64,000 nt of DNA, taken from Thermotoga sp. Ku-13t (GTDB lineage: Bacteria > Thermotogota > Thermotogae > Thermotogales > DSM-5069). The position numbers were made by a program, and so were the translations under genes. The notes beneath the pieces are model-generated. The model was not told the DNA's origin. It saw only the letters and a list, made by a program, of their open reading frames with translations, and made no database searches. The stretch lies in assembly GCF_011057685.1 (NCBI RefSeq), contig NZ_LNFY01000009.1, positions 1 through 64,000 of the forward strand, written 5' to 3'. Below are positions 5,119 to 48,255 of the stretch, piece by piece (within the stretch, counting starts at the first letter, position 1; the number at the start of each line of letters is the position of its first letter).

Positions 5119-5480
5119 GGCACGGTTGTGGAAGAGGTCACGGGGGCCATCTTCTTGAGGTCCTCGTGTTGTTGTTCATCGCGGAGCAACCATCCCATGG
5201 CTATGAGATCGCCAAGAAGCTGAGCGAGCTCGGTGTCGAGTTCGACGGCGTTGGTCCCATGGGAAACCTCTACAGGTTGTTGATGCGACTCGAGGCCGAG
5301 GGGCTGGTTCAATCCGAATGGGATCTCTCCGAAGCAGGCCCTGCCAGGAGAAAATACACGATCACGGAAGCCGGAAAACGGTGGCTTTCTCTCTTGGGCG
5401 AAAGATTAGAGTTTCAGAAAAAGCTTCTGGAAGAGTTTTTCAAGAGGTATGGAGAACTATTTGACCAGCGAAGACAGTGA
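5115..5480 (+). CDS. PadR-family transcriptional regulator
   Basis: A 121-residue winged-helix protein. The N-terminus is again His/Gly/Cys-rich (MRHGCGRGHGGH), followed by the PadR core: LLFIAEQPSHGYEIAKKL, NLYRLLMRLEAEGLV and RRKYTITEAGKRWL, then a C-terminal dimerisation helix. It is translationally coupled to the small His-rich protein and probably represses their shared promoter through the palindrome there. Whether it also acts on the divergent exporter operon 50 bp away is open. Its 3' end overlaps the convergent M55 peptidase gene by 24 bp. Confidence 0.9.
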   Translation: MRHGCGRGHGGHLLEVLVLLFIAEQPSHGYEIAKKLSELGVEFDGVGPMGNLYRLLMRLEAEGLVQSEWDLSEAGPARRKYTITEAGKRWLSLLGERLEFQKKLLEEFFKRYGELFDQRRQ

Positions 5481-6275
5481 AAGGCAAACTCTGAGCAGTC
5501 TGTACGCTTCGAGGTAATTCTGCGCCGTGAAACGCAACATCCTGGCATCGAGCCGCTCCACGTTTGGAAGCAGAGAGGCAGCCTCTGCGAAGGCTGAATT
5601 GTAGAAGGTCAGCTTGATCTCAACGGGCTCCTTTTCGATCGTTGGTTTGAACCTGTCCAGTTTGCTCAGTGCCTCTTCGACACCCGCTCTGAGCTTTTCT
5701 TTCACAACCTCGAAAGGATAGATCTTCGCCGCGTACCTTCCCAGAGCCTCTTTCACAACTACGCCAACGAACTCGTTCAGTTCCTGCTTCGCGCACTCTA
5801 TGGTGAGCTGATCTCCACTCACCAGAACCACTGGGACGTTGAAGCAACCCGCGATTCTAGCGTTCAAACCGGCCTCACTCATCTTCTTTCCGTTGACCTC
5901 CACCGAAAAAACCCTTCCGGTGTACGTGTGATCCATGATCGCGGGTGCACTGCCGGCCCTCGCATGATAGCCGATGAAAAACACGGCATCGAAACTTTCG
6001 TCTATGCCCTCCATCATGCTCATGGGCTTCGGGCTGCCGCTGATCAGAACCGCTTTCGGGTGAAGTTCCTCGATCAGGATGTTGTCCATCGTGTTGTGTG
6101 AGTCGTTCACGACCACTTCTTTCGCACCACACTGGACAGCGGCTTCTACGACCGCGTTGATCTCACGCGTCATGAGCTTTCTGAACCTCTCGTACTCTCT
6201 GTTTTCAGGCGATACGTGTCCCAATCCCACGACCGCTGAGATACCTTCCATATCGGCAGAAATGTAAATCTTCAT
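5457..6275 (-). CDS. M55-family D-aminopeptidase (DppA-like)
   Basis: Zinc aminopeptidase that removes N-terminal D-amino acids (D-Ala or D-Ala-Gly type substrates in the Bacillus enzyme). All known metal ligands are in register: Asp8, Glu10, His60, His104 and Glu134, and the nucleophile-equivalent His116. Start ATG follows AAGGAGGAAG and overlaps the stop of the preceding C26 gene (ATGA). Last gene of an operon with an ABC importer and a gamma-glutamyl hydrolase-like protein, so it probably cleaves the imported peptide in the cytoplasm. No signal peptide. Confidence 0.9.
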   Translation of the reverse strand: MKIYISADMEGISAVVGLGHVSPENREYERFRKLMTREINAVVEAAVQCGAKEVVVNDSHNTMDNILIEELHPKAVLISGSPKPMSMMEGIDESFDAVFFIGYHARAGSAPAIMDHTYTGRVFSVEVNGKKMSEAGLNARIAGCFNVPVVLVSGDQLTIECAKQELNEFVGVVVKEALGRYAAKIYPFEVVKEKLRAGVEEALSKLDRFKPTIEKEPVEIKLTFYNSAFAEAASLLPNVERLDARMLRFTAQNYLEAYRLLRVCLSLSSLVK

Positions 6276-6985
6276 CCTCTCTTCCTCCTTCTCGCGCACT
6301 CTTCAACGAAGCGCCTGAACAGATCGAAATGTTCCCTGTAATGGTTGAACATCCTTTCAGGATGCCACTGAACTCCGAGAATGAACCTGTCGTCGTTCGA
6401 CTCCACCGCCTCGATGACGCCATCGCTGGCGCGTGCGGTGATCTTCAACACTGGTGCTACATCCTTCACGGCCTGGTGGTGGAAGCTGTTCACCGGCAAG
6501 ATTTCCGTTCTCACGATGGAGAACAGGATACTGTCTTTTTCGATGAAGACCTTGTGGGTTGGAGCATGGGCTGGAGCATCCTGCTGGTGTTTCAATACGT
6601 TGCTCAGCTGTGTTTTTATGTCCTGATACAGCGTACCGCCGAGCGCGACATTGATCAGCTGAGCACCCCTGCAGATACCAAAAATCGGCTTGTTCTTTTC
6701 GTAGAAGATCCTGCAGAGAGATATCTCTAACTCGTCCCTGTCGGGTGTTATCTGTCCGAGGTTCGGCAGAGGCTCTTCGTTGTAATGTTTTGGATCGATA
6801 TCGACACCACCAGAGAAGAGAATACCGTCCAGCAGTTCGCTCAGCTGAGAAAGGCTTTCAGGTGTTTGCAGAATTGCTACGAGGATGGGCAAACCGCCGG
6901 CTTCCTCGATCGCCCGAAAATAGCTCGTATTCAACCTGATCGATTCTTCATCCATGGAGCAGGTGATACCTACGATTGGCCGCAC
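6272..6985 (-). CDS. Class I glutamine-amidotransferase-like hydrolase, peptidase C26 (PuuD-like)
   Basis: Cytoplasmic hydrolase expected to cut gamma-glutamyl amide bonds. The nucleophile elbow GICRGAQ carries Cys105, and GVQWHPE supplies His208 and Glu210 of the triad; length 237 fits PuuD-type enzymes. It begins with GTG nine bases after the importer ATPase gene and is coupled to the D-aminopeptidase behind it. The neighbours suggest action on imported gamma-glutamyl compounds rather than on putrescine metabolism, for which no other genes are present. Confidence 0.88.
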   Translation of the reverse strand: MRPIVGITCSMDEESIRLNTSYFRAIEEAGGLPILVAILQTPESLSQLSELLDGILFSGGVDIDPKHYNEEPLPNLGQITPDRDELEISLCRIFYEKNKPIFGICRGAQLINVALGGTLYQDIKTQLSNVLKHQQDAPAHAPTHKVFIEKDSILFSIVRTEILPVNSFHHQAVKDVAPVLKITARASDGVIEAVESNDDRFILGVQWHPERMFNHYREHFDLFRRFVEECARRRKRG

Positions 6986-6994
6986 AATTTTATA

Positions 6995-8074
6995 CTAACT
7001 CAAATTGAGCGCTTCGTTGGTATCGAAATCGAAGAGTATCAAATCTTTCACCTCGACGCACAGATAAAGTTTCTGACCAATGTGGAACTTCTCTTCGGAA
7101 GGTCTGAGCACCTTCACCATCGTCTGCTCGATTGAGACGGTCACGATCTGTTCCCTACCCATGGATTCCACTTCGTAAATTTGAACCTCAACGCACAGGG
7201 CGTTCGGTATCGCACGATCGAGCAAAAGCCCCTTTTCCGGTCTGAAACCGACGATGAGTTTCTTGCTTGAAAATTTCTCCAGCAAAACCGACGGCGCTTC
7301 AATGGCTCTGCCTTCCATAAGGAACGTCTTGCCGTCGTGCTCAACCTTCAGAAGGTTGGCGGGTGGATTTCCAACGAAACTCGCAACGAAGGTGTGCTTC
7401 GGCCTGTAGTAGATCTCGTCGGGGGTGCCGACCTGAACGAGCTTGCCGTTGTTTATCACCGCGATCCTATCTGCGATGGCCAAGGCTTCTGCCTGGTCGT
7501 GCGTCACGTAAACGGAGGTGATGTTCAGATCTTTCTGCAGCCTTTTCAGTTCTGTTCTCACACTGATTCTCAACAGCGCATCGAGGTTGCTCAGAGGCTC
7601 ATCGAAGAGTAAGATTTGAGGTTGCTTCACCAGTGCCCTCGCTATCGCCACACGCTGTTGCTGACCCCCACTCAGTTGCCAGGGGTATCTGTCAAGCAAA
7701 GAATCGATCTTCAGCATGCTGGCGACTTGAAGGACCCTTTCCTGGATCGTTTTCCTGTCGAGTTTTTTCAGAGTCAAAGGAAAGGCTATGTTCTCGAACA
7801 CTTTCATGTGCGGATAGAGCGCCCAGTTTTGAAACACCAGCCCAACGTTTCTTTCCTTCGGTGGCAGGTTCGTGACGTCCTCATCGTTGAACAGGATGCG
7901 ACCCGAGGTGGGTTTGTAGATGCCTGCGATCAGATACATCAGCGTGGTTTTACCGCTGCCCGAAGGACCGAGCAGCACGACGAACTCACCTTCTTCTATC
8001 TGAAGGTTCACCCCATCGAGCGCGGTCACCTTGCCGAACTTCTTGGTGATGTTTTCGAGCACAATGCGTGCCAA
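6995..8074 (-). CDS. ABC importer ATPase, CUT1/MalK-like
   Basis: Energises the importer encoded just upstream. The ATPase domain has Walker A GPSGSGKTT, signature LSGGQQQR, Walker B LLFDEPLSNLD and H-loop VYVTHDQ, followed by a C-terminal OB-fold (TOBE) region as in MalK/MsmK. Of the three CUT1-type importers in this window only this one has an ATPase gene, so it may also serve the others, as multitask ATPases do elsewhere. Starts six bases after the permease gene. Confidence 0.93.
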   Translation of the reverse strand: MARIVLENITKKFGKVTALDGVNLQIEEGEFVVLLGPSGSGKTTLMYLIAGIYKPTSGRILFNDEDVTNLPPKERNVGLVFQNWALYPHMKVFENIAFPLTLKKLDRKTIQERVLQVASMLKIDSLLDRYPWQLSGGQQQRVAIARALVKQPQILLFDEPLSNLDALLRISVRTELKRLQKDLNITSVYVTHDQAEALAIADRIAVINNGKLVQVGTPDEIYYRPKHTFVASFVGNPPANLLKVEHDGKTFLMEGRAIEAPSVLLEKFSSKKLIVGFRPEKGLLLDRAIPNALCVEVQIYEVESMGREQIVTVSIEQTMVKVLRPSEEKFHIGQKLYLCVEVKDLILFDFDTNEALNLS

Positions 8075-8080
8075 AACCCT

Positions 8081-8956
8081 TCACCTCCTGATGCCACCGG
8101 CGTAGACTTTGAACAGCAGCTGCTGAGAACTTATGTAGAAGAAAATCGTCGGCAAAAGGTACAGCGTTGCCGCGGCTGCCAGCAGCGGCATGTACGCCAT
8201 CTCGGCTTCAAGGTTGGATTCTATGAAAGTCGCGAGCGTTTTATCTATGAGAAAGGTTCGCACGTAGATGATGTCCTGCCAGCCGGCGAGAAATCCAAAG
8301 ATCAGTATGGCCACCACACCGGGTTTTATGAGGGGCATCATGATCTTTGCCCAGGTCTTGAACCTCGATGCTCCATCGACGAGGGCGGACCATTCTATCT
8401 CCCAGGGTAGCAGATCGAAAAAACCTTTCATGAGCCAGACTGAGAGAGGAACTTCGAGCGCGGCACGCGCCACTATCACGTAGAAAAAGGAAAAGTACCT
8501 CAGCGCGTTGAGATTCGTCGGCATCCAGATTCTGTAAAGAAAGTAAACGCCCACGATGAGTATTGAACCGGGCAGTGCGTGCAACATGAGCATGGTAAGC
8601 AGAATGAATTTTCTGCCTCTGAACTTTATTCTGGAGATGGCATAGCCAGAGAGCGTCCCTACCAGGGTTGTGACGAGCGCCACACCGAGTGCAACTATTG
8701 CTGTGTTCAGTAAATAGAGAAAAACGTTTTCCCTCAATCCGCCCGTGATAGCGATCCTGCCCTGAAAGAGCAATTTCCAATTTCTCAACGTAAAAGTAAC
8801 CTTCGAGAAATCGAAGTTCGTCACCATCTGGTTTGCGAAGCTCGAAAGGATCAGCATGAAGAAAGCCGTCAGAACCGGAACAGACAGGGCTATCAGAACG
8901 ATCGAGTAAAGGACCTGCCTGCCTTTGCTTCGGACTTCTACATCCGTAAGGCTCAT
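8081..8956 (-). CDS. ABC importer permease, MalG-like
   Basis: Inner-membrane permease with about six helices and the coupling (EAA) motif around EIEWSALVDGASRFKTWAKI. The start ATG shares one base with the stop of the MalF-like gene. Works with the partner permease, the ATPase and the binding protein of this operon. Substrate not readable from sequence; the operon's peptidases argue for a peptide-like rather than sugar ligand despite the sugar-type family. Confidence 0.92.
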   Translation of the reverse strand: MSLTDVEVRSKGRQVLYSIVLIALSVPVLTAFFMLILSSFANQMVTNFDFSKVTFTLRNWKLLFQGRIAITGGLRENVFLYLLNTAIVALGVALVTTLVGTLSGYAISRIKFRGRKFILLTMLMLHALPGSILIVGVYFLYRIWMPTNLNALRYFSFFYVIVARAALEVPLSVWLMKGFFDLLPWEIEWSALVDGASRFKTWAKIMMPLIKPGVVAILIFGFLAGWQDIIYVRTFLIDKTLATFIESNLEAEMAYMPLLAAAATLYLLPTIFFYISSQQLLFKVYAGGIRR

Positions 8957-9900
8957 CAGATATCACCACGCGGCTCCACCATGAGTTTTCCAAAACCAAG
9001 GATCCTCAAAGTCATCAAACCGAGCAGTCCTCCAACCAGCACCAGCAGAGTCCCCGCCGCGGCTGCCAGCCCCTGGTCGAACACACCCGTGAAAGCGAGA
9101 TCGTACACGTAGAGTGCCCAGGGTGTTCCGTAAGATTTGTTCACCAGCCTCCAGCTCACCAGCAGATAGGTGTGTGCGTAAGAAGTTAGCAGGCTCAAAA
9201 GCTGCCAGGTTGTGACGTACATGATGTGCCACTTTATCTGGGGTATCAGCACCTTCCTGCAGATCTGCCAATCTGTAGCACCATCCACTCTCGCGGCGAT
9301 GACGAACTCACCGGGGATACTTTTGATCGCCGACGAGAGCACGATCATCCCGAAGCTCACACCTACCAGACCATTAACGAATATGATCACACTCCAGGGA
9401 CCGTAGGGGATGAATTCCTGACCCCAGGCGATGGGTCTGTCGATCAAACCAAGCTTCAAAAAAATCGAATTCAGCGTTCCAACACCACTACCGTGGAAGA
9501 AGTAATACCAGACCAAACCATAAACAGCGATGGGGGACATCCTGGGTAGAAGCCATATGGTACTCGCTATGGAATTTGTTTTCTTATCCACGAAGAAGGT
9601 GAGCAAGGCGAGTATCAGGCCACCGAGCACGTTCACAATCAGGGTGCAGAGAACGAACACGGCCGTCGTCAGAAAGACGGCTCTCACCGATGGATCGTTC
9701 GCGATGGCGTGGAACAGTTTCTGGTAATTGTAAAGGCCCACCAGTCTCGTCGCGTAGCGCTGTATGTTCCAGTTTCTGAGCGGCGTGAAGCTGGTGTAGA
9801 CCGTCAGGATCAGTGGGACAACGTAGAACACAACGACAACAATGAGAGCCGGGGCCAGGAAGGCCCACAGCTCCCACTTTCTCGAAAACTTTCCTTTCAT
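8956..9900 (-). CDS. ABC importer permease, MalF-like
   Basis: Permease of about 314 residues with a short basic N-terminus and six predicted helices; the EAA loop reads FVIAARVDGATDWQICRKV. I chose the ATG that overlaps the stop of the binding-protein gene (ATGA); an in-frame TTG 18 bases upstream has no spacing from its ribosome site. Second gene of the importer operon. Confidence 0.92.
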   Translation of the reverse strand: MKGKFSRKWELWAFLAPALIVVVVFYVVPLILTVYTSFTPLRNWNIQRYATRLVGLYNYQKLFHAIANDPSVRAVFLTTAVFVLCTLIVNVLGGLILALLTFFVDKKTNSIASTIWLLPRMSPIAVYGLVWYYFFHGSGVGTLNSIFLKLGLIDRPIAWGQEFIPYGPWSVIIFVNGLVGVSFGMIVLSSAIKSIPGEFVIAARVDGATDWQICRKVLIPQIKWHIMYVTTWQLLSLLTSYAHTYLLVSWRLVNKSYGTPWALYVYDLAFTGVFDQGLAAAAGTLLVLVGGLLGLMTLRILGFGKLMVEPRGDI

Positions 9901-11477
9901 TTTCCGCCGAATCTCCAATCCTTTGGAATATCGTTTATGATCTTCACGCCAGCTTTGAGATCGAGATCGGCGTTGATTTTTCCGATCGCGTAATCGATCG
10001 CTTTGGCGGGATCCATCTGACCCCTGAGTACGTAGTCAACCACTTCGGCGAAGATCGCGGAGAGCTTTGCGTACATCGGGTGCACGGGCGGGAAGTTGGT
10101 GTACTCGAGCATGTACGACACCTTCGAGAGGAACGCGGCGTTGATCGGATTGACTGTCGCTTTTACGATGCCCGCAATTTTTTCTTTCACACCTGGATCC
10201 AGATCGATCTGGAGGTTGTAGAGCTTGTCGAGCCACTCTTTGCTGGCGAGAAGCTCGGCCGAAGGCTTTCCAACCGGTAGGTGCGCGCTTATGATGCTGT
10301 GTATGGCGTTTATGTCTGGATCTGAAGCCTTCGCAACGATCAGGAACGCGAGTTCATCGTAGACAGATTTCAGGGCGCTGTATTTCGGGTTCTGCGCTCC
10401 GGCCTTCGAGCTGACCATCCACATGAACGGTTGGCTCAAAGTAACGGGTTTCTTTCCAGGTTCTCCGGCTGGGAACAGCGTGTAGTAGAACCACTGTTCG
10501 ACTTCTTCAGGCTTCAGGCCCCTCATCTGCCCAGTCTTTGGATCCGTGTAATAGTCCTTGGTTTGCCACTCGGTCCAGTACCAGGTGCCGCCGATGTCGA
10601 AGAGCGTCTTTCCATCAACGATCGCGGGATGCACCTGTTTTGCCCAGTCCCAGGCCATCATGTCGGAAGGCAGCAATTTTTCGCGTGCGAACGTCCATTC
10701 GATCGTCAGCCACTTGTATATGGCTTCTTTGTCGAACACGAGTTTCCCATCGGCTGGATCGTAGAGCTTGCTACCGAATGCGAGTATGAACTGCATCAGA
10801 TCTGGATGCGCACTGCCCCTTCTATGTATCAGGCCCCATTCGGAAGCTCCAGTTTGAACGGCTTTCTTCGCCCATTCGTAGACGTCGAACCAGGTGAACT
10901 CGCCTTTCAGGACCTTCTCGTCGAGGCCCTGCAGATCGAGTCCAACCTTCGCCGCGATGTCTTTTCTGATGTAGAACGGCCTGGCTTCGGTGTCCTGTGG
11001 TAGACCGTAGATCCTTCCTTTGTACTTGGCCACCTCGATGTGCGATGCAAAGAAATTGTTCAGAAGCTCTTTGTGTTTCTCAAGGTAGGACGTCAGATCG
11101 AGCAGGTACCCTTCCTCAGCGAGTGGCGCTATGTAGACGTACGAGTTCACTAGGAAGTCTCCCGCGGTTCCGAGCGGCTGCTTGCTCAAGAACTCCTGAT
11201 ACATCTGCGTGAAGTCGAGTTCGTAGCGGGTCTCTCTGATCGTGACCTTCACGTTGATACCATTTTTTGCCCAGATTTCGTTGATGCGCCTCGCAGCTTC
11301 AACGATACCCAGAACTCTCAGCACACTGTTGGGATCTCCGGTGCCCCAGACCGCGTAGCGTACCTCGTTGACACCGTTCTTTTCGAGCGTGCGACCCACC
11401 TGAACGATGCTGTCCTCGATACCTGCAAAGAGTAGAAGCGTCACGCCGAGCAGTGCAACCAGAAGCCACCTTCTCAC
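9897..11477 (-). CDS. ABC importer substrate-binding protein (family 1, large)
   Basis: Exported ligand-binding protein of about 526 residues, longer than usual for the family. The signal peptide is MRRWLLVALLGVTLLLFAG. The GTG chosen follows GGGAGGGG with good spacing; a TTG two codons upstream overlaps that region. First gene of the operon binding protein - two permeases - ATPase - C26 hydrolase - M55 aminopeptidase. Ligand unknown; the context favours a gamma-glutamyl or D-amino-acid-containing peptide or amide. Confidence 0.9.
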   Translation of the reverse strand: MRRWLLVALLGVTLLLFAGIEDSIVQVGRTLEKNGVNEVRYAVWGTGDPNSVLRVLGIVEAARRINEIWAKNGINVKVTIRETRYELDFTQMYQEFLSKQPLGTAGDFLVNSYVYIAPLAEEGYLLDLTSYLEKHKELLNNFFASHIEVAKYKGRIYGLPQDTEARPFYIRKDIAAKVGLDLQGLDEKVLKGEFTWFDVYEWAKKAVQTGASEWGLIHRRGSAHPDLMQFILAFGSKLYDPADGKLVFDKEAIYKWLTIEWTFAREKLLPSDMMAWDWAKQVHPAIVDGKTLFDIGGTWYWTEWQTKDYYTDPKTGQMRGLKPEEVEQWFYYTLFPAGEPGKKPVTLSQPFMWMVSSKAGAQNPKYSALKSVYDELAFLIVAKASDPDINAIHSIISAHLPVGKPSAELLASKEWLDKLYNLQIDLDPGVKEKIAGIVKATVNPINAAFLSKVSYMLEYTNFPPVHPMYAKLSAIFAEVVDYVLRGQMDPAKAIDYAIGKINADLDLKAGVKIINDIPKDWRFGGK

Positions 11478-11686
11478 ACACAACCCCTCCCTTCAGGAGT
11501 AGAATGGATATGAAAGATAAAACCAGATTCGAGAACTTTAAACATTTCTTGATCTGAACAAAGATTCACCCACCAGCACCATCAGGTACTTCTTGAAGCC
11601 GGAAAAGGGCTATAATAACTATAGCAAAAGTTACAAAAGGCGTCAATGTATTACGAAAAGTTTCAAAAGATTGCGAAAAACTGTGG
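11478..11686. promoter_or_regulatory. Divergent control region with repeats
   Basis: This 0.2-kb gap separates two divergent operons of the presumed peptide-catabolism island. TATAAT at 11611-11616 sits inside a short inverted repeat (CTATA ... TATAG, 11610-11624), with no clear -35 box. Two similar blocks, AAAAGTTACAAAAGG (11626-11640) and AAAAGTTTCAAAAGA (11656-11670), repeat 30 bp apart between that box and the rightward gene and could be tandem operator half-sites. No regulator gene lies nearby. Confidence 0.45.
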
Positions 11687-12565
11687 GTGGCAACTTTGGT
11701 CAAAGGTGTGGGCATAAACATCGACACACGACGTTTATCAGGTTCCCACGAAATTCTCAGGACAGAACTTGAGAAATTCCAGCGTTTTGGGTTTGATTAC
11801 GCAGAGATACCTCCTGCGGGTCTTGACGTGATCCTCGATGGCAAGATCGTTTCAAAGCGACTCGACCCCATCCTGCAGATCCTCAAAAGTTGCAGTCTGA
11901 AGTTCACAGTCCACGGTCCTGATCCGGTGAATCTCTCGTCAAACAGAGAAGAAGATTTTTCGATCGTGTTAGCCACCATAGATTTTGCCTCCTTCGTGGG
12001 TGCGGAAAGCGTGGTTTACCACTGTGGCTGGCTTGGTGAAGATCGAGAGAAAAAGGATAGAGAGATAGAAAATCTCAAAAAACTCTGTGATAAGCTTGAG
12101 AAGATGCGCGTGATTCTCGTTGTGGAAAACACCAGGCAAACGATCGAGCAGACGCTCGAAATCGTTCAGGCCGTAAATCATCCGAACGTGAGACTTTTGA
12201 TTGACGTGGGACATTTGTTCTTGAGGCTGAGAGGGAATGAGAAAGAATTTCTAAGACAGATTTCCCTCGGTCTTCCTCACGCCTTCGAGCTTCACGTGCA
12301 CGACAACTTCGGCAAGCCTGAGGAAGACTACGAGCCCATGATGGCATCATCATTGTTCGCTTACCTCTATGGAGTGGGGGACCTGCATTTGCCCATTGGT
12401 TATGGGAGAATACCTTTCGAAGAGCTTTTCAAGCTGGTCCGCGAGGAATTCGATGGCATCGTCGTGCTCGAAATAAACGATATGAACCGGTTCGAGAAGG
12501 ATATTCCTGAGAGCCTGGAAAAGCTGAGAACCTTGTCGACCGCTGGAGGTGTTGGACATGCTTGA
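11687..12565 (+). CDS. Sugar phosphate isomerase/epimerase-like TIM-barrel protein
   Basis: Protein of about 290 residues of the xylose isomerase-like (AP endonuclease 2) superfamily. Candidate metal and catalytic positions appear in VVENTRQ, LLIDVGHLFL, FELHVHDNFG and VVLEIND. The exact reaction cannot be read. The start is uncertain: GTG at the given position, TTG three codons later (after GGGTGG), or a GTG further in. It opens the rightward operon and overlaps the transglutaminase-like gene by 8 bp. Confidence 0.8.
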   Translation: MATLVKGVGINIDTRRLSGSHEILRTELEKFQRFGFDYAEIPPAGLDVILDGKIVSKRLDPILQILKSCSLKFTVHGPDPVNLSSNREEDFSIVLATIDFASFVGAESVVYHCGWLGEDREKKDREIENLKKLCDKLEKMRVILVVENTRQTIEQTLEIVQAVNHPNVRLLIDVGHLFLRLRGNEKEFLRQISLGLPHAFELHVHDNFGKPEEDYEPMMASSLFAYLYGVGDLHLPIGYGRIPFEELFKLVREEFDGIVVLEINDMNRFEKDIPESLEKLRTLSTAGGVGHA

Positions 12566-13880
12566 GTTCCTCATGTGTGGTTTACCTGAGAACGTTCGAC
12601 GTGCAGAGGAAATGGGCGATTGGGAAAACGCCATAAGCCTGATTGACAGATGGCTGAGGGACACACGCGTCAATGAGGTGCAGAGGCGACGTCTCGAATA
12701 CGAAAAGTTCAGGATCAGGAGGTTGCTCGCAGCGCATCCGTACGATGAAGCGGAAGCTTTAGAAAAAGCACAAGAGATGATTCGGGATTTCGATTACGAT
12801 GAATTTTACAGGCTCATAGACGAAGGTTGCGTCGATTTCATCCTCGTCAACAAGAGAAAGAGATTCTTCGAAAGATTCGTTCAGAACATTGCCTTCGCCC
12901 GGCCGGAATACAAGTCGAGGATATTGATCGATCCCGAAGAGGAAAAGAACAGACAGCTGATCGAGGAGAGGATAAAGGCGCTCGCCCACGGTTCAGCCCC
13001 GAAGAGTTACAGGGTACGAATAAAGTTGAAAGCAACGCTGGATTGGCCAGAAGATTATTTCAGAGTCTGGCTGCCCTTTCCAAAGGAAGGCTTTCAGATA
13101 GAAGATGTGAAGTTGCTGTACGTGAGCGAGGAGAACTACTTTCTGGCCGACAACGATGTTCCTCAGAGAACCATCTTCTTCGAAGGTACGAGTAGAGAGT
13201 ACATCGTCGAGTTCGGATACACTGTTCGCGAATGGATCAACAGGGTCGATCCTTCAAAGGTTCAGGAGTGCGATGTGGAGGATTTTCTTGGAGAGGAACC
13301 TCCTCACATAGTCTTCACACCGTACATCAGATACCTGACTCTCAAGATCATCGGTGACGAAAAGAACCCTTATTTGAAGGCCAAGCGCATCTACGACTGG
13401 ATCACGAGCAGGGTGAGATACTGCTACGTCAGGCCTTACGCGACTTATGAGAACATATCGCAGTACGTGGCTGAAAACCTCAAAGGTGATTGCGGCTTTC
13501 AAGCGCTGCTCTTCATAACGATGTGCAGGATCGCAGGTGTTCCTGCGAGGTGGCAGTCTGGCTGGTACGTCACACCGTACTTCGTATCGCCACACGATTG
13601 GGCGCTGTTCTACGTCAAACCGTACGGCTGGCTTCCTGCCGATCTTTCTTTCGGTGGGGCAAGGAGGCACAATGAGAAACTGCGCAGCTTCTATTTTGGA
13701 AACCTGGACGGCTTCAGGATGGTCGCGAATGATGATTTCATGAAACAATTCACTCCTGAACCAAAGTTCTACAGGGAAAATCCCACGGACAACCAACTCG
13801 GCGAGGCCGAAACACATAGCAAGAAGATTGGTCTGGAAACTCACATAAGCGTGGTACAGTTCGAAGGCTGGGAGGTCTGA
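12558..13880 (+). CDS. Transglutaminase-like cysteine protease/hydrolase
   Basis: About 440 residues: an N-terminal helical region, a beta-rich middle, and a C-terminal transglutaminase core with the triad Cys in LKGDCGFQALLF, His in SPHDWALFYV and Asp in LPADLSFG. Bacterial members usually act as proteases or amidases on peptides or peptidoglycan stem peptides. No signal peptide is visible, which points to a cytoplasmic role on imported material. The ATG chosen sits 8 bases after GGAGGTG. Flanked by the TIM-barrel gene and the dipeptide epimerase in one operon. Confidence 0.85.
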   Translation: MLEFLMCGLPENVRRAEEMGDWENAISLIDRWLRDTRVNEVQRRRLEYEKFRIRRLLAAHPYDEAEALEKAQEMIRDFDYDEFYRLIDEGCVDFILVNKRKRFFERFVQNIAFARPEYKSRILIDPEEEKNRQLIEERIKALAHGSAPKSYRVRIKLKATLDWPEDYFRVWLPFPKEGFQIEDVKLLYVSEENYFLADNDVPQRTIFFEGTSREYIVEFGYTVREWINRVDPSKVQECDVEDFLGEEPPHIVFTPYIRYLTLKIIGDEKNPYLKAKRIYDWITSRVRYCYVRPYATYENISQYVAENLKGDCGFQALLFITMCRIAGVPARWQSGWYVTPYFVSPHDWALFYVKPYGWLPADLSFGGARRHNEKLRSFYFGNLDGFRMVANDDFMKQFTPEPKFYRENPTDNQLGEAETHSKKIGLETHISVVQFEGWEV

Positions 13881-13883
13881 ACG

Positions 13884-14921
13884 GTGGGAAAGATAAAAGA
13901 TGTTCGGCTCACATTGAAAAAATACGTTTATCACAAACTGTTCCACATCACAGGAAGCATATCTTCCGAGGCGAGCAACGTCGAAGTTGAACTGTTTCTG
14001 GACAGTGGTGTTGTGGGAAAAGGCGAGGCATCCCCATCCTTCAGGGTCAACGGTGAAAGGGTCGAAATGCTCCTGGCGATGGAAAACTTTTTGAAAGAGA
14101 GCTTGGTGGGCCTCGATGTGCGCAACTACGCGAAGATCTTCGAGATCACCGACAAACTTCTGGCAACTCCGAGTTTGAAAGCCGCCGTTCAATTTGCCAC
14201 GCTCGATGCTCTCTGCGAAGAACTCAGTGTATCGGTGGCAGAGTTCCTCGGAGGGGTGAAGGAAGAGATCGAGACCGATAAGACTGTGGGTATAGACACC
14301 TTGGAAAACAGGGTGAAAGACGCCGAAAAGATTTTCAAGGAAGGTTTCAGAACGATCAAGATCAAGGTGGGTGAAAACCTCAAAGAAGACATCGAGGCGA
14401 TGCTCGAGATCGCAAAGGTAGCTAAGGGGGCGAAGTTCATAGTCGATGCGAACATGGGTTACACACCGAAGCAGGCGATCGAGTTCGCGAACGTCGTGTA
14501 CCACGGCGGTGTGGACATAGCCGTTTACGAACAGCCCGTGGTTTGGCATGACGTTGAGGGGCTCAGGTTCGTCAGGTTCCACTCTCCGTTCCCGGTGGCA
14601 GCGGACGAATCTGCGAAACGAAAGTACGATGTGCTGAAACTGATAAAGGAAGAAGCGGTGGATTACATCAACATAAAGCTCATGAAGAGTGGTCTGAGCG
14701 ACGCCATGGCTATAGTGGAGCTTGCGAGAGCTTCCAATTTAAAGTTGATGATCGGTTGCATGGCTGAATCGAGTCTTGGGATCAACCAGAGCGTCCAGTT
14801 CGCGCTCGGTACGGGCGCGTTCGACTTTCACGATCTGGACAGCCATCTGTTGCTCAACGAACCTTCGTTCAGAGGAAAGTTCGTTCAGGAAGGTCCGAAG
14901 ATGAAGCTGACACGGAGGTGA
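13884..14921 (+). CDS. Dipeptide epimerase, enolase superfamily (L-Ala-D/L-Glu epimerase type)
   Basis: Converts the D-residue of an imported dipeptide to L by proton transfer, as the T. maritima and E. coli enzymes do for L-Ala-D-Glu. Visible signatures: the KxK base in TIKIKVG, metal ligands in FIVDANMGY, YEQPV and VAADES, the lysine of NIKLMKSG, and the C-terminal DxD (DFHDLDSHLLL) that marks dipeptide epimerases. GTG start three bases after the previous stop. It links this operon to murein or glutamyl peptide catabolism. Confidence 0.9.
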   Translation: MGKIKDVRLTLKKYVYHKLFHITGSISSEASNVEVELFLDSGVVGKGEASPSFRVNGERVEMLLAMENFLKESLVGLDVRNYAKIFEITDKLLATPSLKAAVQFATLDALCEELSVSVAEFLGGVKEEIETDKTVGIDTLENRVKDAEKIFKEGFRTIKIKVGENLKEDIEAMLEIAKVAKGAKFIVDANMGYTPKQAIEFANVVYHGGVDIAVYEQPVVWHDVEGLRFVRFHSPFPVAADESAKRKYDVLKLIKEEAVDYINIKLMKSGLSDAMAIVELARASNLKLMIGCMAESSLGINQSVQFALGTGAFDFHDLDSHLLLNEPSFRGKFVQEGPKMKLTRR

Positions 14922-16267
14922 TCGAGATAAAGATAAAGGATCTGGTCGGGCTCTACGCTCGGAGAAAACTCAGACCGAAGGAGTTCGTCGAGGAATGTTT
15001 CAAAAAGATAGAAGCGCAGAAACACTTGGGGGCTTTCATAAGTCTCGACTACGAAGGTGCCATGAGGACGGCAGAATCTCTGGAAAACTCGTTCAGGAAC
15101 GAAGAGAACCTCCCTCCACTCTACGGAGTACCCATCGCGGTCAAGGACCTGATCGACGTTGCCAATCTGAAGACCACGGCGGGAAGCTTGTTCTTCAAAG
15201 ACAACATTGCGAAAGAAGATGCGTTCGTGGTGCAGCAGCTCAAGAAGGCCGGTGCCATAATCGTTGGGAAGACGAACCTTCACGAGATCGCGCTCGGTGT
15301 GACGAACAACAACCCGCATTTTGGTCCGTGCAGAAATCCACACGATCCGAGCAGGATCTCCGGTGGTTCTTCCGGTGGATCTGCAGTCGCCGTCGCCACG
15401 GACATGGTCGTGACGGCCCTCGGAACGGACACCGGCGGTTCGATACGCATTCCCGCCGCGCTGTGTGGAGTTGTTGGGTTGAAACCTACCTACGGAAGGG
15501 TGAGTGTGAGGGGTGTTCTTCCCCTGTCGTGGCACCTGGACCACGTGGGACCTCTGGCCAGCTGCGTCGAAGATGCCTGGATTGTGCTGAAGGTGATCTC
15601 CAGGTATGACGAGGAAGATCCCTTCTCGCTGAAAGCACCCCTCAGAGAACCAGATTTTGAGAGGTTCCCTGAGGGAATAAAGGTTCTCAAACCTGTGGGT
15701 GAATTCATTTCTAGGGCCGATGAGAGGATTCTGAACCTCGTCGACGAGGCGGCCCGCGTGCTGGAAAAACTCGGAGCCGTCGTGGAAGAAAGATACATCG
15801 AATGGTTGAAGGATGCCGCGGCGGCCAACGGTTTGATCACGCAAACGGAAGCGGCAGCATTCCACAGAGAAAGGTTGAAAGAGCATCCAGAACTGTTCGG
15901 GGAAGATGTCAGACAGAGGTTGATGGAAGGAGCCTCCACGAGTGGAGCAGATTACGCGCTGGCAAGGAGAGTTCAAACGATCGTTAAGCACAGCTTCAGG
16001 GAATTGTTCAAAGAATACGATCTTTTGATCCTACCAACGGTGCCCATCGTCGCACCTCCCATTCAGGGAGAAGGCGCGGTCGAAATGGCAAGAAAGCTCA
16101 CTCGTTTTACCGCTGAGTTCAACATCTCTGGCTTGCCCGCGCTGAACTTGCCGTTCGGTCGTGTTGATGGTTTACCAGCCGGAGTGCAGTTCGTCACGAA
16201 ATGGTGGAGGGAGGATCTGCTGGTCCAGGTTGCCCACGCAGTCGAGAGGACCGTGAACGTCGGTTGA
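14918..16267 (+). CDS. Amidase signature-family hydrolase (GatA-like)
   Basis: Serine amidohydrolase of 449 residues with the full Ser-cisSer-Lys triad: Lys in PIAVKDLID, cis-Ser in SGGSSGGSA and nucleophile Ser in DTGGSIRIP. It is not a clear GatA, as no gatB or gatC is present; a catabolic amide hydrolase fits better. The start is awkward: GTG within GGAGGTGA, which itself overlaps the stop of the epimerase gene; an unusual start just downstream cannot be excluded. Last gene of the rightward operon. Confidence 0.88.
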   Translation: MIEIKIKDLVGLYARRKLRPKEFVEECFKKIEAQKHLGAFISLDYEGAMRTAESLENSFRNEENLPPLYGVPIAVKDLIDVANLKTTAGSLFFKDNIAKEDAFVVQQLKKAGAIIVGKTNLHEIALGVTNNNPHFGPCRNPHDPSRISGGSSGGSAVAVATDMVVTALGTDTGGSIRIPAALCGVVGLKPTYGRVSVRGVLPLSWHLDHVGPLASCVEDAWIVLKVISRYDEEDPFSLKAPLREPDFERFPEGIKVLKPVGEFISRADERILNLVDEAARVLEKLGAVVEERYIEWLKDAAAANGLITQTEAAAFHRERLKEHPELFGEDVRQRLMEGASTSGADYALARRVQTIVKHSFRELFKEYDLLILPTVPIVAPPIQGEGAVEMARKLTRFTAEFNISGLPALNLPFGRVDGLPAGVQFVTKWWREDLLVQVAHAVERTVNVG

Positions 16268-16479: not shown

Positions 16480-17718
16480 ATGAGAAAGTGGTTACTGGTG
16501 GCACTCGTACTCTTGATGGTGGTATCTGTCCTCGGAAAGGTTAAGATCGTGTACTGGCAGTACTACTTCGAAACCAAAGTCAAGGCCATAGATGAACTTA
16601 TCAAAGAATTTCAAAAGCTCTATCCAGACATCGAGATTGAGCACGTCACGTTCCCGTACGAAACGTTCAACGAAAAGGTTGCCGCCTCTGTTCCCGCAGG
16701 AACAGGGCCGGATGTTGTGAACCTTTACTACGGCTGGATCCCGAAGTACGTGACTTCTGGTTATCTGCAACCACTTCCGAAAAGCGATTTTTCAGATCAA
16801 TATTTCGAAGAGAATTTCTTCCCATTCGTGGCAAAAGGAGTCGAGTTTTTGGGCGAACGGTACGCTGTACCGATTGCTGTAAGGAGTCTAGCACTCTTTT
16901 GGAACAAAGATCTCTTCAAGCAAGCGGGTCTGGATCCGGAGAAACCTCCAAGGACGCTCCAGGAACTCGTTGAAATCGCAAAGAAACTGACTAAGTATGA
17001 CAAACAGGGCAACATAGTCCAGGCCGGCCTTGCAACGCAACCTTCTGGCCAGGGCCACCACTGGATAAGGGAAGTGCTGGTCAGGCAGTTCGGCGGTCAA
17101 CCCTACAGTGATGATTACAGGAAGGTGCTTTACCAAAACGCTCCTGAGGCGCTCAAGTTCTACACAGATCTGATCACCGTTCACAAGGTCGGATACCCTG
17201 GCTTCATGAACGACGATATCACGGCGTTCGTGTCTTCATCAGCAGCGATGAACATCGATGGTTCTTTCCGAATAGCGGCCCTTAAGAAAGCAGGCTTGAA
17301 TTTCGGTGTGGCTGAACTTCCTGAGCATAACGGAATAAAGTCCAACTTCGCATCTTTCTGGGCGAACGCAATAACAAAGAATGCCACGGGTCCCAAGCTC
17401 GATGCGGCGATCAAGTTCATAAAGTTCTTGGCGAGCGAAAAAGTCATGGAATTCTGGCTCGATGCGGTTGGAGAACTTCCGGCCAATCCCAAGGTTGCTC
17501 AAAAATACTACAATGATCCCATCTATGGCCCGTTCTTGAAGGGTCTCGAGTATGCCCACGCGACTTTCTTCGTTGACGAGAAAGAGCAGAGACAGGTCAT
17601 CATGGATGCGGTTGACAAAGTCTGGTTGAAAGGAGTTCCACCTGAGCAGGCTTTCAGAGAAGCGGCGGAGATAGAGCAAAGACTTCTGGATGAATTCTGG
17701 AAGAACGTAGGTAAGTGA
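16480..17718 (+). CDS. ABC importer substrate-binding protein, family 1
   Basis: Exported binding protein of 412 residues with signal peptide MRKWLLVALVLLMVVSVLG after the strong site GAAGGAGG. The mature part shows the family pattern KIVYWQYYF, FQKLYPDIEIEH, GTGPDVVNLYYGW and GERYAVPIAVRSLALFWNKD. First gene of an operon with two permeases and an amidohydrolase. Ligand unknown. Confidence 0.92.
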   Translation: MRKWLLVALVLLMVVSVLGKVKIVYWQYYFETKVKAIDELIKEFQKLYPDIEIEHVTFPYETFNEKVAASVPAGTGPDVVNLYYGWIPKYVTSGYLQPLPKSDFSDQYFEENFFPFVAKGVEFLGERYAVPIAVRSLALFWNKDLFKQAGLDPEKPPRTLQELVEIAKKLTKYDKQGNIVQAGLATQPSGQGHHWIREVLVRQFGGQPYSDDYRKVLYQNAPEALKFYTDLITVHKVGYPGFMNDDITAFVSSSAAMNIDGSFRIAALKKAGLNFGVAELPEHNGIKSNFASFWANAITKNATGPKLDAAIKFIKFLASEKVMEFWLDAVGELPANPKVAQKYYNDPIYGPFLKGLEYAHATFFVDEKEQRQVIMDAVDKVWLKGVPPEQAFREAAEIEQRLLDEFWKNVGK

Positions 17719-17761
17719 AAGCTGGGCACGGTCTACGCCGTGCCCGTTCGGGGTGAAAGCA

Positions 17762-18649
17762 ATGAAGTTGAGACAGAAAAAGATCTTGACGGCATATCTT
17801 TTTCTGGCTCTACCGCTTTTTTTCTTTGTTTTCATTCGTTTTTATCCCATGCTTTCGGCGTTTTACATGAGTTTCACCAACTGGAACATCCTTTCTCCAA
17901 AAAAAGATTTCGTTGGTTTCTCCAACTACGTGAAGATCTTCAGCGATCCTGTTTTCAGAATAGCTCTCTTCAACACGCTCAAATACGTTCTGCTGGGCGT
18001 GCCGAGTGTAATCGTTGTTTCTCTGTTTCTTGCGCTTTTGTTGAACAACATGATCAGGTTCCGTAGCATGTACCGTCTCATTTATGTTATGCCTTACATT
18101 ACACCGATGGTCGCGACGAGCTGGGTTTGGCGCTGGATGTATCAGAGGCCACCGGCCGGGATTATAAACAACATTTTGAACGCTCTTGGCTTACCAACGA
18201 GAGGCTTTCTGATGAGTACAACTGAAGCGCTACCTTCCATCGTGGTCACAACCGTCTGGATCGAAATTGGTTACTGTGTGCTCATTTTTCTGGCAGGTCT
18301 ACAGAACATCCCAAAAGAGTACTTGGAAGCCGCAAGGGTTGATGGTGCAAACAGAAGGCAGTTACTGTTCAGGATAACTATTCCTCTTCTCAATCCGGTG
18401 ATAGTTTTTTTGTCGGTCATCGAGACCATCATCTTCCTGAGAATATTCACTCAAGTTTACAACATGACTGATCAGGGATCGGGAGGACCCCTCAATTCGA
18501 CAAAGCCACTGGTGCTTTACATATACCAGAAGGCGTTCAAGTCGTTCGACATGGGAACCGCGGCCGCCGCAACCGTCGTGCTCTTTGCGATCATACTCAC
18601 CATAACGATATTTCAGCTGAAAGTCTTGAACAGGAACGTTCAGTACTGA
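17762..18649 (+). CDS. ABC importer permease, MalF-like
   Basis: About 295 residues with six predicted helices and the EAA loop YLEAARVDGANRRQLLFRI. I chose the ATG five bases after GGGGTGA rather than the GTG three codons upstream. Partner of the next gene. No ATPase gene is present in the operon. Confidence 0.92.
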   Translation: MKLRQKKILTAYLFLALPLFFFVFIRFYPMLSAFYMSFTNWNILSPKKDFVGFSNYVKIFSDPVFRIALFNTLKYVLLGVPSVIVVSLFLALLLNNMIRFRSMYRLIYVMPYITPMVATSWVWRWMYQRPPAGIINNILNALGLPTRGFLMSTTEALPSIVVTTVWIEIGYCVLIFLAGLQNIPKEYLEAARVDGANRRQLLFRITIPLLNPVIVFLSVIETIIFLRIFTQVYNMTDQGSGGPLNSTKPLVLYIYQKAFKSFDMGTAAAATVVLFAIILTITIFQLKVLNRNVQY

Positions 18650-18664
18650 GGTGGTGGTATAAAG

Positions 18665-19486
18665 GTGACAAAATCCGACAGGATCGTCAAGGCAGTTGCT
18701 TACACCGTCTTGACTGCTTTGGCTATCGTCATGATCTTTCCCTTCGTGTGGATGGTTCTTTCATCCTTCAAGCCTTTCAGTGAGATTTACAGGCCTTATT
18801 TTTTCCCGAAGAATCCAACCCTGGATAATTACAGACAGATACTCGGTTCTTCTCTATTTCCAAGATGGTTTACGAACAGTATAATTGTTGCCCTTGTGAC
18901 TACTGCTTCTGTGCTGTTCTTCGATTCACTCGTCGGTTACACGCTCGCCAAATTCAGATTTCCCGGAAGGAACATTATATTCGTCTTCATCCTCAGCACG
19001 CTCATGATCCCGACCGAGATGCTCATAATACCCTGGTACGTGATGTCCTCGAAGTTCGGCTGGATCGATACGTACTGGGGAATCATGTTTCCAGGTATGA
19101 TAACAGCCTTTGGAATCTTCCTCATGAAACAGTTCATGGAGACGATTCCCGACGATCTGATAGATGCGGCGAGGATAGACGGTGTTTCGGAGTTTGGGAT
19201 ATTCTGGAGAATAGCCCTCCCACTCGTCAGACCGGCACTCGCATCTCTGGCGATTTTGAACTTCATCGGCAACTGGAACGCTTTCCTGTGGCCGTTGATC
19301 GTGTCTTCGAAACCGCAGATGTACACGCTTCCTGTCGGACTGGCGTACTTCTCGAGTGAAAATTTGATGAGGTGGGAATTGATCATGACGGGTGCGACTA
19401 TTTCAACCTTGCCGTTGATAGCTGTGTTCCTGATATTCCAGAGACAGATCATCAGGGGAATCATGCTCTCCGGCCTGAAGGGGTGA
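18665..19486 (+). CDS. ABC importer permease, MalG-like
   Basis: Six-helix permease with EAA loop LIDAARIDGVSEFGIFWRI, 273 residues. GTG start preceded by GAGGTGGTG. Forms the membrane channel with the preceding permease; it needs an ATPase encoded elsewhere, perhaps the MalK-like protein 11 kb upstream. Confidence 0.92.
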   Translation: MTKSDRIVKAVAYTVLTALAIVMIFPFVWMVLSSFKPFSEIYRPYFFPKNPTLDNYRQILGSSLFPRWFTNSIIVALVTTASVLFFDSLVGYTLAKFRFPGRNIIFVFILSTLMIPTEMLIIPWYVMSSKFGWIDTYWGIMFPGMITAFGIFLMKQFMETIPDDLIDAARIDGVSEFGIFWRIALPLVRPALASLAILNFIGNWNAFLWPLIVSSKPQMYTLPVGLAYFSSENLMRWELIMTGATISTLPLIAVFLIFQRQIIRGIMLSGLKG

Positions 19487-41457: not shown

Positions 41458-42612
41458 TCATTTGCTGTACACGAGCTGCCCATCGATGTACACTCTTTCC
41501 ACGACCGATTTCATGTCGAAGGGATGGCCGGACCAGACCACCAGGTCTGCATCCTTACCGACCTCTATCGAGCCGATCCTCTCTTCCAGTCCCAGTATCT
41601 TAGCGGGGTTGATCGTGAGCATCTTCAAAAGCTCTTCCTCTTTCATACCGTAACGCATCGCGGTTGCCGCTTGCACCGAAGCAAATTCCAGCGGTATCAC
41701 GGGATGGTCACACATGAGCGCCACCAAAACCTTCTTTTCGACGAGGATCTTCAAAGCTTCCATCGTCATGTTCCTGAGCTCGAGCTTCGTGGCGAAAGTC
41801 ATCAACGGTCCCGCGACCACGGGGATCTTCTTGCTCGCCAGCAGGTCCGCCACCCTGTAGCCCTCGGTGCAGTGTTCAAGAACGATCCTCAGGTTGAACT
41901 CCTCCGCCAGTCTGATCGCGGTGACGATGTCGTCCATGCGGTGCGCATGGATCCTCGCCGGAAGCTCGCGTTTAAGGAGCTTTTCTCCAACCTCGTACTT
42001 CGGATCTCTCTCCAAAAATTCTTTTCCTTCCTTCAGCGCCTGTTCTTTCTTCTTCATGTAATCCTGGGATTTGAGCAGGAAGGTTCTTATCACAGCCGCC
42101 GTTCCCATCCTCGTCGTCGGCATCATTTTCTTTTCGGAATAGACCCTCTTCGGGTTCTCCCCGAGCGCCATTTTCACTCCCGCGGGATTGACGAGGCACA
42201 TGTCCATGACTGTCTTTCCTTTGAACTTCGCGATGAATCCCATACCTCCCACGGGATTCCCACTGCCCATGACAACGAAGGCGGTCGTTACGCCTCCTGA
42301 GAGCGCCTTTTTGATGGACTCGTCCTCGGGGTAGAACGCGTCGAGCGCCTGCAGGTGCGCTGTGACGGGATCGGTCGTTTCGTTGCCCTCGCTCTCCGTT
42401 GATCCCAGGCCTTCGGGGTACAGTCCAATGTGTGCGTGCGCGTCGATAAAACCGGGAAGCAGGAATTTGCCTTCAAGATCGATCACTTCAACGGATCGTG
42501 TCGGCTTGATCTGACCAACTTTGCTGATCTTTCCATCCTCCACGAGCACGTCGCCCACGAAGGGTTTAGAGGTGATGGGAAAAACCGTCGCGTTCTTGAA
42601 CAGCAGTTTCAT
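41458..42612 (-). CDS. Amidohydrolase, imidazolonepropionase-like
   Basis: Cytoplasmic metal hydrolase of 384 residues. A beta-sandwich start (FKNATVFPIT, VLVEDGKISKVG) leads to the HxH motif GFIDAHAHIGLYPEG; later ligands are in ARIHAHRMDD, RIVLEHCTEGY and ALMCDHPVIP; it ends with the usual IGSIEVGKDADLVVW. The precise substrate (cyclic amide, dipeptide or N-acyl compound) is not readable. It lies 47 bp behind the pectin ABC permease with its own GGAGGTGG site, so it may be the last gene of that operon or only adjacent. Confidence 0.85.
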   Translation of the reverse strand: MKLLFKNATVFPITSKPFVGDVLVEDGKISKVGQIKPTRSVEVIDLEGKFLLPGFIDAHAHIGLYPEGLGSTESEGNETTDPVTAHLQALDAFYPEDESIKKALSGGVTTAFVVMGSGNPVGGMGFIAKFKGKTVMDMCLVNPAGVKMALGENPKRVYSEKKMMPTTRMGTAAVIRTFLLKSQDYMKKKEQALKEGKEFLERDPKYEVGEKLLKRELPARIHAHRMDDIVTAIRLAEEFNLRIVLEHCTEGYRVADLLASKKIPVVAGPLMTFATKLELRNMTMEALKILVEKKVLVALMCDHPVIPLEFASVQAATAMRYGMKEEELLKMLTINPAKILGLEERIGSIEVGKDADLVVWSGHPFDMKSVVERVYIDGQLVYSK

Positions 42613-42659
42613 TTGCCCACCTCCGATCGTTCGCTTTACTTACTTTTATGATAATACGT

Positions 42660-43490
42660 TCACGCCTTGATCGCACCCTGGGTTAAGCCTTCGACGATGT
42701 ACTTCTGCGCCAGCATGAACACCACGATCGTTGGTAGAAGCGCCATGACGATGCCTGCGGCCATCACGTTCCACTGGATGCCCGCCTTGGAAACGAACGA
42801 ATACAACGCGACGGGTACGGTCATCTTTCTGTCCGTGTGCAGAAACAAAACTGCGGTGAAGACCTCGTTCCAGCTGTTGACGAAGCAGAAGCTGAATATC
42901 GATCCAACGCCTGGCAAAAGCAGTGGAATCACGATTTTGAAGAGCACCTGCAATCTGTTGCAGCCATCTATCATCGCGGCTTCCTCGATCGTTCTCGGAA
43001 GGTTCTTCAAAAACGCTCGCGCCATGATCGTGCCGAACGCAGATCCAAAGCCTGTGTAGATGATGATCACCGAGGTGAGCGTGTTGGTGAGTTTGAGCTT
43101 CGAAAACATCGTGAACTGGGGTATCATGATCAGATAGGTCGGCAGCATCTGCACGAAGAAGAGAAGTAGGATCAGAAACGTCCTCAATCTGAATTGCTCG
43201 CGCGTGAGAATGTAACCCGCCACGATGGAAAAGAGCGTTGACAGTACTGCAGAAGTTGTCGCGACGATGAACGAGTTCTTGAAGTACACGTTGAACCTGG
43301 CGAAGCTGAAGAGGTACCTGTACGCTTCCAGCGTCGGCTTAGAAGGAAGATACTTCACCGGAAAGGTGTAGACTTCCGTGGCTGGTTTTATCGATGTGAG
43401 GAATATCCAGACCAGTGGAAAGATGGCCACGATGAGAAATATGGAAAGGCCGATGAACCTGAGAACATCCTGCAGCCTTCTCTTCTTCAC
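42660..43490 (-). CDS. ABC importer permease, MalG-like (pectin locus)
   Basis: Six-helix permease of 276 residues; EAA loop TIEEAAMIDGCNRLQVLFKI. Overlaps its MalF-like partner (ATGA). Located behind pectate lyase and exopolygalacturonase genes, so oligogalacturonate uptake is the likely job, as in the T. maritima locus TM0430-TM0433. No ATPase gene in the operon. Confidence 0.92.
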   Translation of the reverse strand: MKKRRLQDVLRFIGLSIFLIVAIFPLVWIFLTSIKPATEVYTFPVKYLPSKPTLEAYRYLFSFARFNVYFKNSFIVATTSAVLSTLFSIVAGYILTREQFRLRTFLILLLFFVQMLPTYLIMIPQFTMFSKLKLTNTLTSVIIIYTGFGSAFGTIMARAFLKNLPRTIEEAAMIDGCNRLQVLFKIVIPLLLPGVGSIFSFCFVNSWNEVFTAVLFLHTDRKMTVPVALYSFVSKAGIQWNVMAAGIVMALLPTIVVFMLAQKYIVEGLTQGAIKA

Positions 43491-44359
43491 AGCTCGAACT
43501 CACCCCGCTCGAGGAGAACCAGATAAATGATCGCGAAGACCAGCAAAATAGCGGTTATGATCATGCCGAGCGCCGATGCCAGGCCGAAGTTGTTCCTGTA
43601 ATAAACGATGTTTATCATGTTCACAGAAAGGATGTTGGTCGCTCCCGCGGGACCACCGCGCGTCATGCCGTAGATGATGTCTGGAAAGTTCATCACCCAG
43701 ATGATCCTCAGCAAAATCGTGCTGTAGATCGTCGGGCGGATGTACGGCAAGGTGACGTAGAAGAGCTTTCTGAACAAACCTGCACCATCGATCTGTGCTG
43801 CTTCATACAATTCGTTCGGGATCGACTGGATCGCCGCAAGGATCATGATAGCAAAGAAAGGTATGCCATACCAGACGTTCACCAGGATCACCGAAAACAT
43901 CGCGAACCTTTCGTCAGAGAGAAATCCTATCGGCACCTTTATCAAGCCGAGCCTCATGAGGATGTCGTTCACGATACCGAACTGACCGTTCAAGAGCCAC
44001 GACCAAAGCAGACCTATGGCGAAACCTGAGAGCGCCCACGGATAGAACACCAGTCCCATGTACAGTCCCCTACCGGGGAAGGGCTTTGCTAAAAGTAGCG
44101 CCAGGATCAGACCGAACAGGAACTGAAACGCCACGGAGCAGGCGATCCAGACGAACGTGTTCCAGAGCAAACGTGGAAAACCAGGATCAGTGATGATCGT
44201 TCTGTAATTGCTCCAGCCGACGAACCTCGGATTGTTCAAATTGAACACCGTGAGCCGCTGAAATGAAATTACCCCCCCGCGGACGAGGGGGTAAAGGTTC
44301 ACGAGGAAAACTAAAGCGAAGGTCGGAACAAGCATCAAAACCCAGAGCTTTTTTTTCAC
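43487..44359 (-). CDS. ABC importer permease, MalF-like (pectin locus)
   Basis: Permease of 290 residues with six helices and EAA loop LYEAAQIDGAGLFRKLFYV. Overlaps the binding-protein stop and the next permease start by four bases each, so the three are translated as a unit. Confidence 0.92.
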   Translation of the reverse strand: MKKKLWVLMLVPTFALVFLVNLYPLVRGGVISFQRLTVFNLNNPRFVGWSNYRTIITDPGFPRLLWNTFVWIACSVAFQFLFGLILALLLAKPFPGRGLYMGLVFYPWALSGFAIGLLWSWLLNGQFGIVNDILMRLGLIKVPIGFLSDERFAMFSVILVNVWYGIPFFAIMILAAIQSIPNELYEAAQIDGAGLFRKLFYVTLPYIRPTIYSTILLRIIWVMNFPDIIYGMTRGGPAGATNILSVNMINIVYYRNNFGLASALGMIITAILLVFAIIYLVLLERGEFEL

Positions 44360-47034: not shown

Positions 47035-47040
47035 TCTTTT

Positions 47041-48232: not shown

Positions 48233-48255
48233 ACCTTCCGAGGTTCAAGAGCAGT

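Follow-up and report, generated by a model that had tools for sequence, protein, structure and literature searches.

A ten-gene divergent island in Pseudothermotoga with a putative role in the breakdown of murein peptides

Why would a sugar-type ABC importer share an operon with peptidases, and face a second operon that encodes further peptide-processing enzymes? This question is raised by a ten-gene island of Thermotoga sp. Ku-13t, a heat-loving Pseudothermotoga. The island lies at positions 5457-16267 of the 64,000-nucleotide stretch of contig NZ_LNFY01000009.1 that we analyzed (the window). The original prediction described a ten-gene divergent island and proposed that it imports and breaks down a murein peptide or glycopeptide. 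All ten open reading frames are present, in two divergent, tightly packed runs, and Pfam (all hits above cut-off) and NCBIfam (with its curated cut-offs) agree on every family, so the layout is confirmed. Gene neighborhoods across genomes show that the island is built of three modules: a core formed by a transglutaminase-like protein (TG) and a dipeptide epimerase (DE); a CUT1 importer with a TIM-barrel gene (TIM); and a pair of C26 and M55 peptidases. We propose that these were assembled into a regulon for the catabolism of murein-derived peptides that contain D-amino acids. For the island as a whole, we see this proposal as evenly poised.

The transglutaminase-like protein and the dipeptide epimerase

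TG (12549..13880, plus strand; Transglut_core, PF01841) has no obvious signal peptide. Residues Cys315, His349, and Asp365 are invariant in two alignments, of 18 and 40 homologs. The AlphaFold model of TG is confident (pLDDT 92.7), and its nearest solved folds are 3isr (a putative cysteine protease, E = 3.7e-15), TgpA, and TglA; the fold match to the pseudomurein endoisopeptidase PeiP is weak. TG is thus predicted to be a transglutaminase-like (papain-like) cysteine peptidase, with a Cys-His-Asp triad within the transglutaminase fold. We consider this family to be the most interesting part of the island. Within the collection of papers that we searched, none links transglutaminase-like proteins to dipeptide epimerases or to murein recycling.

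DE (13884..14921, plus strand; MR_MLE_N/C) scores 599.7 bits against the NCBIfam model for the Thermotoga L-Ala-D/L-Glu epimerase (NF041118, cut-off 500) and 557 bits against the T. maritima enzyme (2zad), and it retains the DxD and Lys motifs. The T. maritima epimerase, which is the closest characterized protein, was reported to show high activity toward L-Ala-D/L-Phe, -Tyr, and -His (PMC5808125), so L-Ala-D-Glu is not certain to be the natural substrate. The same genome encodes a second DE (G000:C1:102663-103682), which scores 551 bits against NF041118.

TG and DE are usually found together. We searched 61 genomes for homologs of TG, the importer's solute-binding protein (SBP), and TIM. TG was found in 44 of them, and in 38 of the 44 Thermotogota genomes with TG, DE is at most 135 bp away. 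We also searched genome contigs with a profile built from the TG alignment, which gave at least 552 confirmed relatives, and scanned the neighborhoods of the best 80 loci. DE was detected at 23 of these 80 and was the immediate neighbor of TG in all 23, across several phyla; outside the Thermotogota, the pair was seen in Thermoanaerobacter, WOR-3, Enterococcus, and a metagenome-assembled genome of Lachnospiraceae. TG-DE is the conserved core of the island.

The neighbors of this core hint at its substrate. (Genomes have G labels, G000 being Ku-13t itself, and scanned loci have L labels.) An Opp importer adjoins TG in seven of the scanned loci (L164, L175, L177, L185, L199, L223, and L235). In G007, the neighbors of TG-DE-amidase are a complete Opp importer and an M14 carboxypeptidase; in G051, TG-DE adjoins Opp, and G008 likewise has Opp at the importer's place. 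Gene order is M55, S66 LD-carboxypeptidase, TG in G045 and G057, and DE, M55, Asp/Glu racemase in G047. In Clostridium symbiosum (L223), Opp lies upstream of TG, M55 comes directly after TG, and an M19 dipeptidase is two genes further on. Five Mesoaciditoga-type loci (L176, L177, L178, L185, and L199; L178 and L137 are one contig) have TG with NagZ, a beta-lactamase-fold protein, and AnmK; among these, NamZ was detected as an immediate neighbor of TG only in L177 and L185. Finally, M55 adjoins NlpC/P60 in G009, G048, and G054.

Given these neighbors of TG or DE (Opp, S66, M14, M55, the Glu racemase, and NagZ/AnmK), murein-peptide catabolism is the best reading. On this gene-context evidence, support for it is good at the level of the TG-DE core and moderate for the island, and we think it very probable that the peptide genes form a murein module. 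The peptide side of the original prediction is therefore supported. Because TG-DE recurs beside peptide importers in other bacteria, and TG in a few lineages lies within operons for the recycling of cell-wall sugars, the island looks like an unrecognized variant of bacterial cell-wall salvage.

In C. symbiosum, TG-M55 lies between two pyridoxal-phosphate enzymes of the D-cysteine desulfhydrase type, with the M19 dipeptidase following (L223:7878-13246).

We also considered that the island might scavenge D-amino-acid or gamma-glutamyl peptides in general (such as poly-gamma-glutamate fragments or racemised peptides), with no specificity for murein, and that CUT1 has replaced Opp. The presence of Opp at the importer's place beside TG-DE or TG-DE-amidase (G007, G008, and G051) would fit, as would the activity of the T. 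maritima epimerase on aromatic and His dipeptides, which itself weighs against a murein substrate. The presence of TG in archaea, which have no murein, would fit too and likewise weighs against murein, as do Tissierella-type genomes in which TG adjoins M20 instead of DE; because of these, the TG family may be broader than murein. However, the operons with NagZ/AnmK that enclose TG in Mesoaciditoga-type genomes and the S66 LD-carboxypeptidase adjoining TG both favor murein, and we consider general scavenging to be rather improbable.

We return to murein peptides and to the rest of the Ku-13t genome. It encodes a NagZ-MurQ pair and AnmK outside the island, so the sugars of an imported muropeptide could be finished in the cytoplasm. 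We found no Amidase_2 or AmpD-type protein in this genome, so the AmpD step could fall to the island's amidase or to TG. The genome also has an OppABC-NlpC/P60-OppDF operon, separate from the island (L253:4385-10917, G000:C11). Its NlpC/P60 protein has an N-terminal hydrophobic stretch, and this operon looks like a more conventional locus for importing murein peptides.

The importer and its TIM-barrel partner

If the enzymes act on peptides, what does the importer bring in? One minus-strand operon encodes a 528-amino-acid SBP (9897..11483; SBP_bac_1), two BPD_transp_1 permeases (MalF type, 8956..9918, and MalG type, 8081..8956), and a MalK/UgpC-type ATPase (6995..8074; ABC_tran), which is the composition of a CUT1 importer. 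The best NCBIfam match of the ATPase, to the UgpC subfamily, scores 397 (cut-off 432). Across the divergent region, the plus-strand operon begins with a xylose-isomerase-like TIM-barrel protein (11687..12565; AP_endonuc_2, PF01261).

The SBP is 30–35% identical to SBPs from inositol loci, and other CUT1 SBPs are far weaker matches. Outside its own family, it is closest to SBPs about 450 amino acids long in Thermotoga-type genomes. It is about 80 amino acids longer than the inositol-locus SBPs, with several insertions, but retains motifs such as PQDTEARPFYI. (A structure model of the SBP from a three-sequence alignment had a pLDDT of 43.8.) In one related cluster (L247), the importer and the TIM gene that follows it share a locus with IolG, IolN, and IolO, each of which scores above its curated cut-off. 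MalK and TIM of the island are 53% and 44% identical to their counterparts there. Because of the Iol context we call this cluster InoEFGK, after the transporter to which inositol uptake has been assigned in T. maritima (PMC3750489).

TIM and this importer family are tightly linked: 27 of 28 TIM homologs have an SBP from this family no more than 6 kb away, and 27 of the 30 SBPs have a TIM. The importer and TIM form one module, and TIM belongs historically with the importer and not with the peptidase genes. We therefore rejected the idea that TIM is by descent a partner of the peptidases.

The main rival to our proposal is that the ligand is a cyclitol or a sugar. The importer and TIM would handle an inositol-like cyclitol or a plain sugar, and the link of TG-DE-amidase and C26-M55, as murein-peptide genes, to them would amount to no more than a common divergent promoter region. 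The importer and TIM are most closely related to the inositol-locus module, which speaks for this and against a muropeptide, as do the SBP's relatives of solved structure, which bind sugars. In G007, a 73%-identical importer is alone on a short contig, with neither peptidases nor TIM. It also counts against a muropeptide that none of the island genes deals specifically with murein sugars. Yet TIM heads the TG-DE-amidase operon throughout the genus and in G006, with a 17-bp overlap with TG in the window; C26-M55 has in the genus become part of the importer operon; and the SBP is longer than the inositol-locus SBPs, with insertions. IolG, IolN, and IolO were not found among the ten island genes by Pfam or NCBIfam, and the rest of the genome was not searched for them. 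Taken together, we think a cyclitol or sugar is unlikely, though it is a stronger competitor than general peptide scavenging. Import of muropeptides by the CUT1 system, as first suggested, is plausible or at least possible but meets these same objections. That the imported ligand carries both sugar and peptide is somewhat doubtful.

Conservation tells us how firmly the modules are joined. The original prediction looked to gene neighborhoods in Pseudothermotoga, and there synteny extends over the whole island in G001, G003, and G004, and on two contigs of G002. This synteny across the genus excludes a chance association. The two operons are conserved together throughout the genus and, in part, in a second genus (G006 keeps the importer and TIM-TG-DE-amidase); but in a third genus (G007), Opp and M14 take the place of the CUT1 importer beside TG-DE-amidase, and the importer lies apart. 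That separation is the kind of finding which the original prediction said would refute it; the genus and G006 show the opposite.

A second CUT1 importer lies directly 3' of the amidase (16480-19486), with an SBP and two permeases; we saw no ATPase there. We rejected it as part of the island, as it is not at that place in G001, G003, or G004, where the next conserved gene directly follows the amidase. Another CUT1 importer in the window (42660-45618) lies near pectate lyase-like and polygalacturonase-like proteins, an amidohydrolase, and a TRAP permease (41458-49647); its homologs adjoin DE in G058 (L138) and follow the amidase in G006 (L146).

C26, M55, the amidase, and the divergent region

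At the far end of the importer operon are a gamma-glutamyl hydrolase-type C26 peptidase (6272..6985, minus strand; PF07722, 238 bits) and a DppA-like M55 D-aminopeptidase (5457..6299, minus strand, with a likely ATG start at 6275; PF04951, 351 bits). The nearest structure to C26 is 3fij (Lin1909), and its Cys and His motifs are present; M55 aligns to DppA (1hi9) and keeps the zinc-binding and catalytic motifs. Both belong to their Pfam families and fall below the narrower NCBIfam equivalogs (131 versus a cut-off of 266 for PuuD, NF008471; 252.5 versus 430 for DppA, NF058634). C26 and M55 are paired in G006, G007, G008, and G010 as well as in the genus, and only in the genus are they inside the importer operon. 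Elsewhere they lie near genes for TRAP-type transporters (in G007 by Pfam; in G006 and G008 by similarity). By their distribution, they are a separate pair and the third module. The G007 locus (L149, G007:C13) combines C26-M55 with an Amidohydro_3 amidohydrolase, an arginase-family protein, and a TAXI-TRAP transporter, and may be another locus for D-amino-acid peptides. Ku-13t has a second M55 (G000:C1:14129-14932).

The amidase-signature hydrolase (14918..16267, plus strand; PF01425, 375 bits) closes the other operon. We rejected its assignment as GatA (326, cut-off 481) or AtzE (348, cut-off 461). All six of the island's enzymes have kept their catalytic motifs intact. Spacing is operon-like on both strands: C26 is 9 bp from MalK and overlaps M55, and on the plus strand TG and DE are 3 bp apart and DE overlaps the amidase by 4 bp.

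Between the operons, we found one sigma-70-like promoter directed toward the SBP operon (TTGACG-17-TATAGT, with the letters 'TG'; 11609..11646, minus strand). Shuffling gives a chance expectation of 0.6, so the match is weak on its own. It lies within a near-palindromic block, common to the two divergent operons, that is kept in the five genomes of the genus (G000-G004). The palindrome (11609-11625) has no second copy within the window. PadR and MarR genes lie adjacent to the island; we considered and rejected them as its regulators, as we found no supporting evidence.

A proposed pathway and known systems

Most likely, the island's enzymes take apart cell-wall peptides. In our proposal, the CUT1 importer (the SBP, two permeases, and MalK) would take in the ligand, most likely a muropeptide. 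In the cytoplasm, the amidase, TG, or both may then cut a sugar-peptide bond or an isopeptide bond (of the gamma-D-Glu-Lys type), as the fold, the triad, and the gene context suggest; in Bacillus, this role is held by the NlpC/P60 protein YkfC. DE would convert the released L-Ala-D-X to L-Ala-L-X, and, going by their families, M55 would take off N-terminal D-amino acids and C26 would open gamma-glutamyl bonds. Given its strict linkage to the importer family, TIM might process the part of the ligand that is a sugar or cyclitol. NagZ, MurQ, and AnmK would finish the sugar of an imported muropeptide.

We speculate further that a CUT1 importer of inositol-type descent imports muropeptides and that the TG family is a widespread, unrecognized cytoplasmic murein (iso)peptidase or muramyl-peptide amidase, which takes over from YkfC or AmpD in Thermotogota, Firmicutes, and others. 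We think this full version unlikely. If it is true, Thermotogota would have a cell-wall salvage route in which the peptidase and the importer class are both outside known schemes. Epimerases adjoining TG, from Thermotoga to Enterococcus, would gain an obvious partner enzyme. Because the product of TG would be the substrate of DE, the function of TG is directly testable.

The murein-peptide operon of Bacillus subtilis, dppA-E/ykfA-D, encodes M55, an epimerase, an ABC importer, NlpC/P60, and S66. The island shares M55 (nearest solved relative, DppA), an epimerase of the L-Ala-D/L-Glu type, an ABC importer, and a peptidase of papain-like fold. It differs in that the importer is of the CUT1 sugar type and not of the peptide type (Opp/Dpp), TG replaces NlpC/P60, and there is no S66 LD-carboxypeptidase; the island adds C26, the amidase, and the TIM barrel. 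(YkfB and its orthologs are treated in PMC5808125.) With the Thermotoga InoEFGK locus (PMC3750489), the island shares the SBP, two permeases, MalK, and the TIM-barrel gene, but its SBP is longer, TIM has moved into the divergent peptidase operon, and the Iol genes are missing from the island. In Agrobacterium tumefaciens, the ABC importer YejBEF, with its dedicated SBP YepA, imports muropeptides in place of AmpG for murein recycling (PMC9790009). The island likewise has an ABC importer with a dedicated SBP, which may transport muropeptides; YejBEF is of the peptide type, whereas the importer of the island is CUT1.

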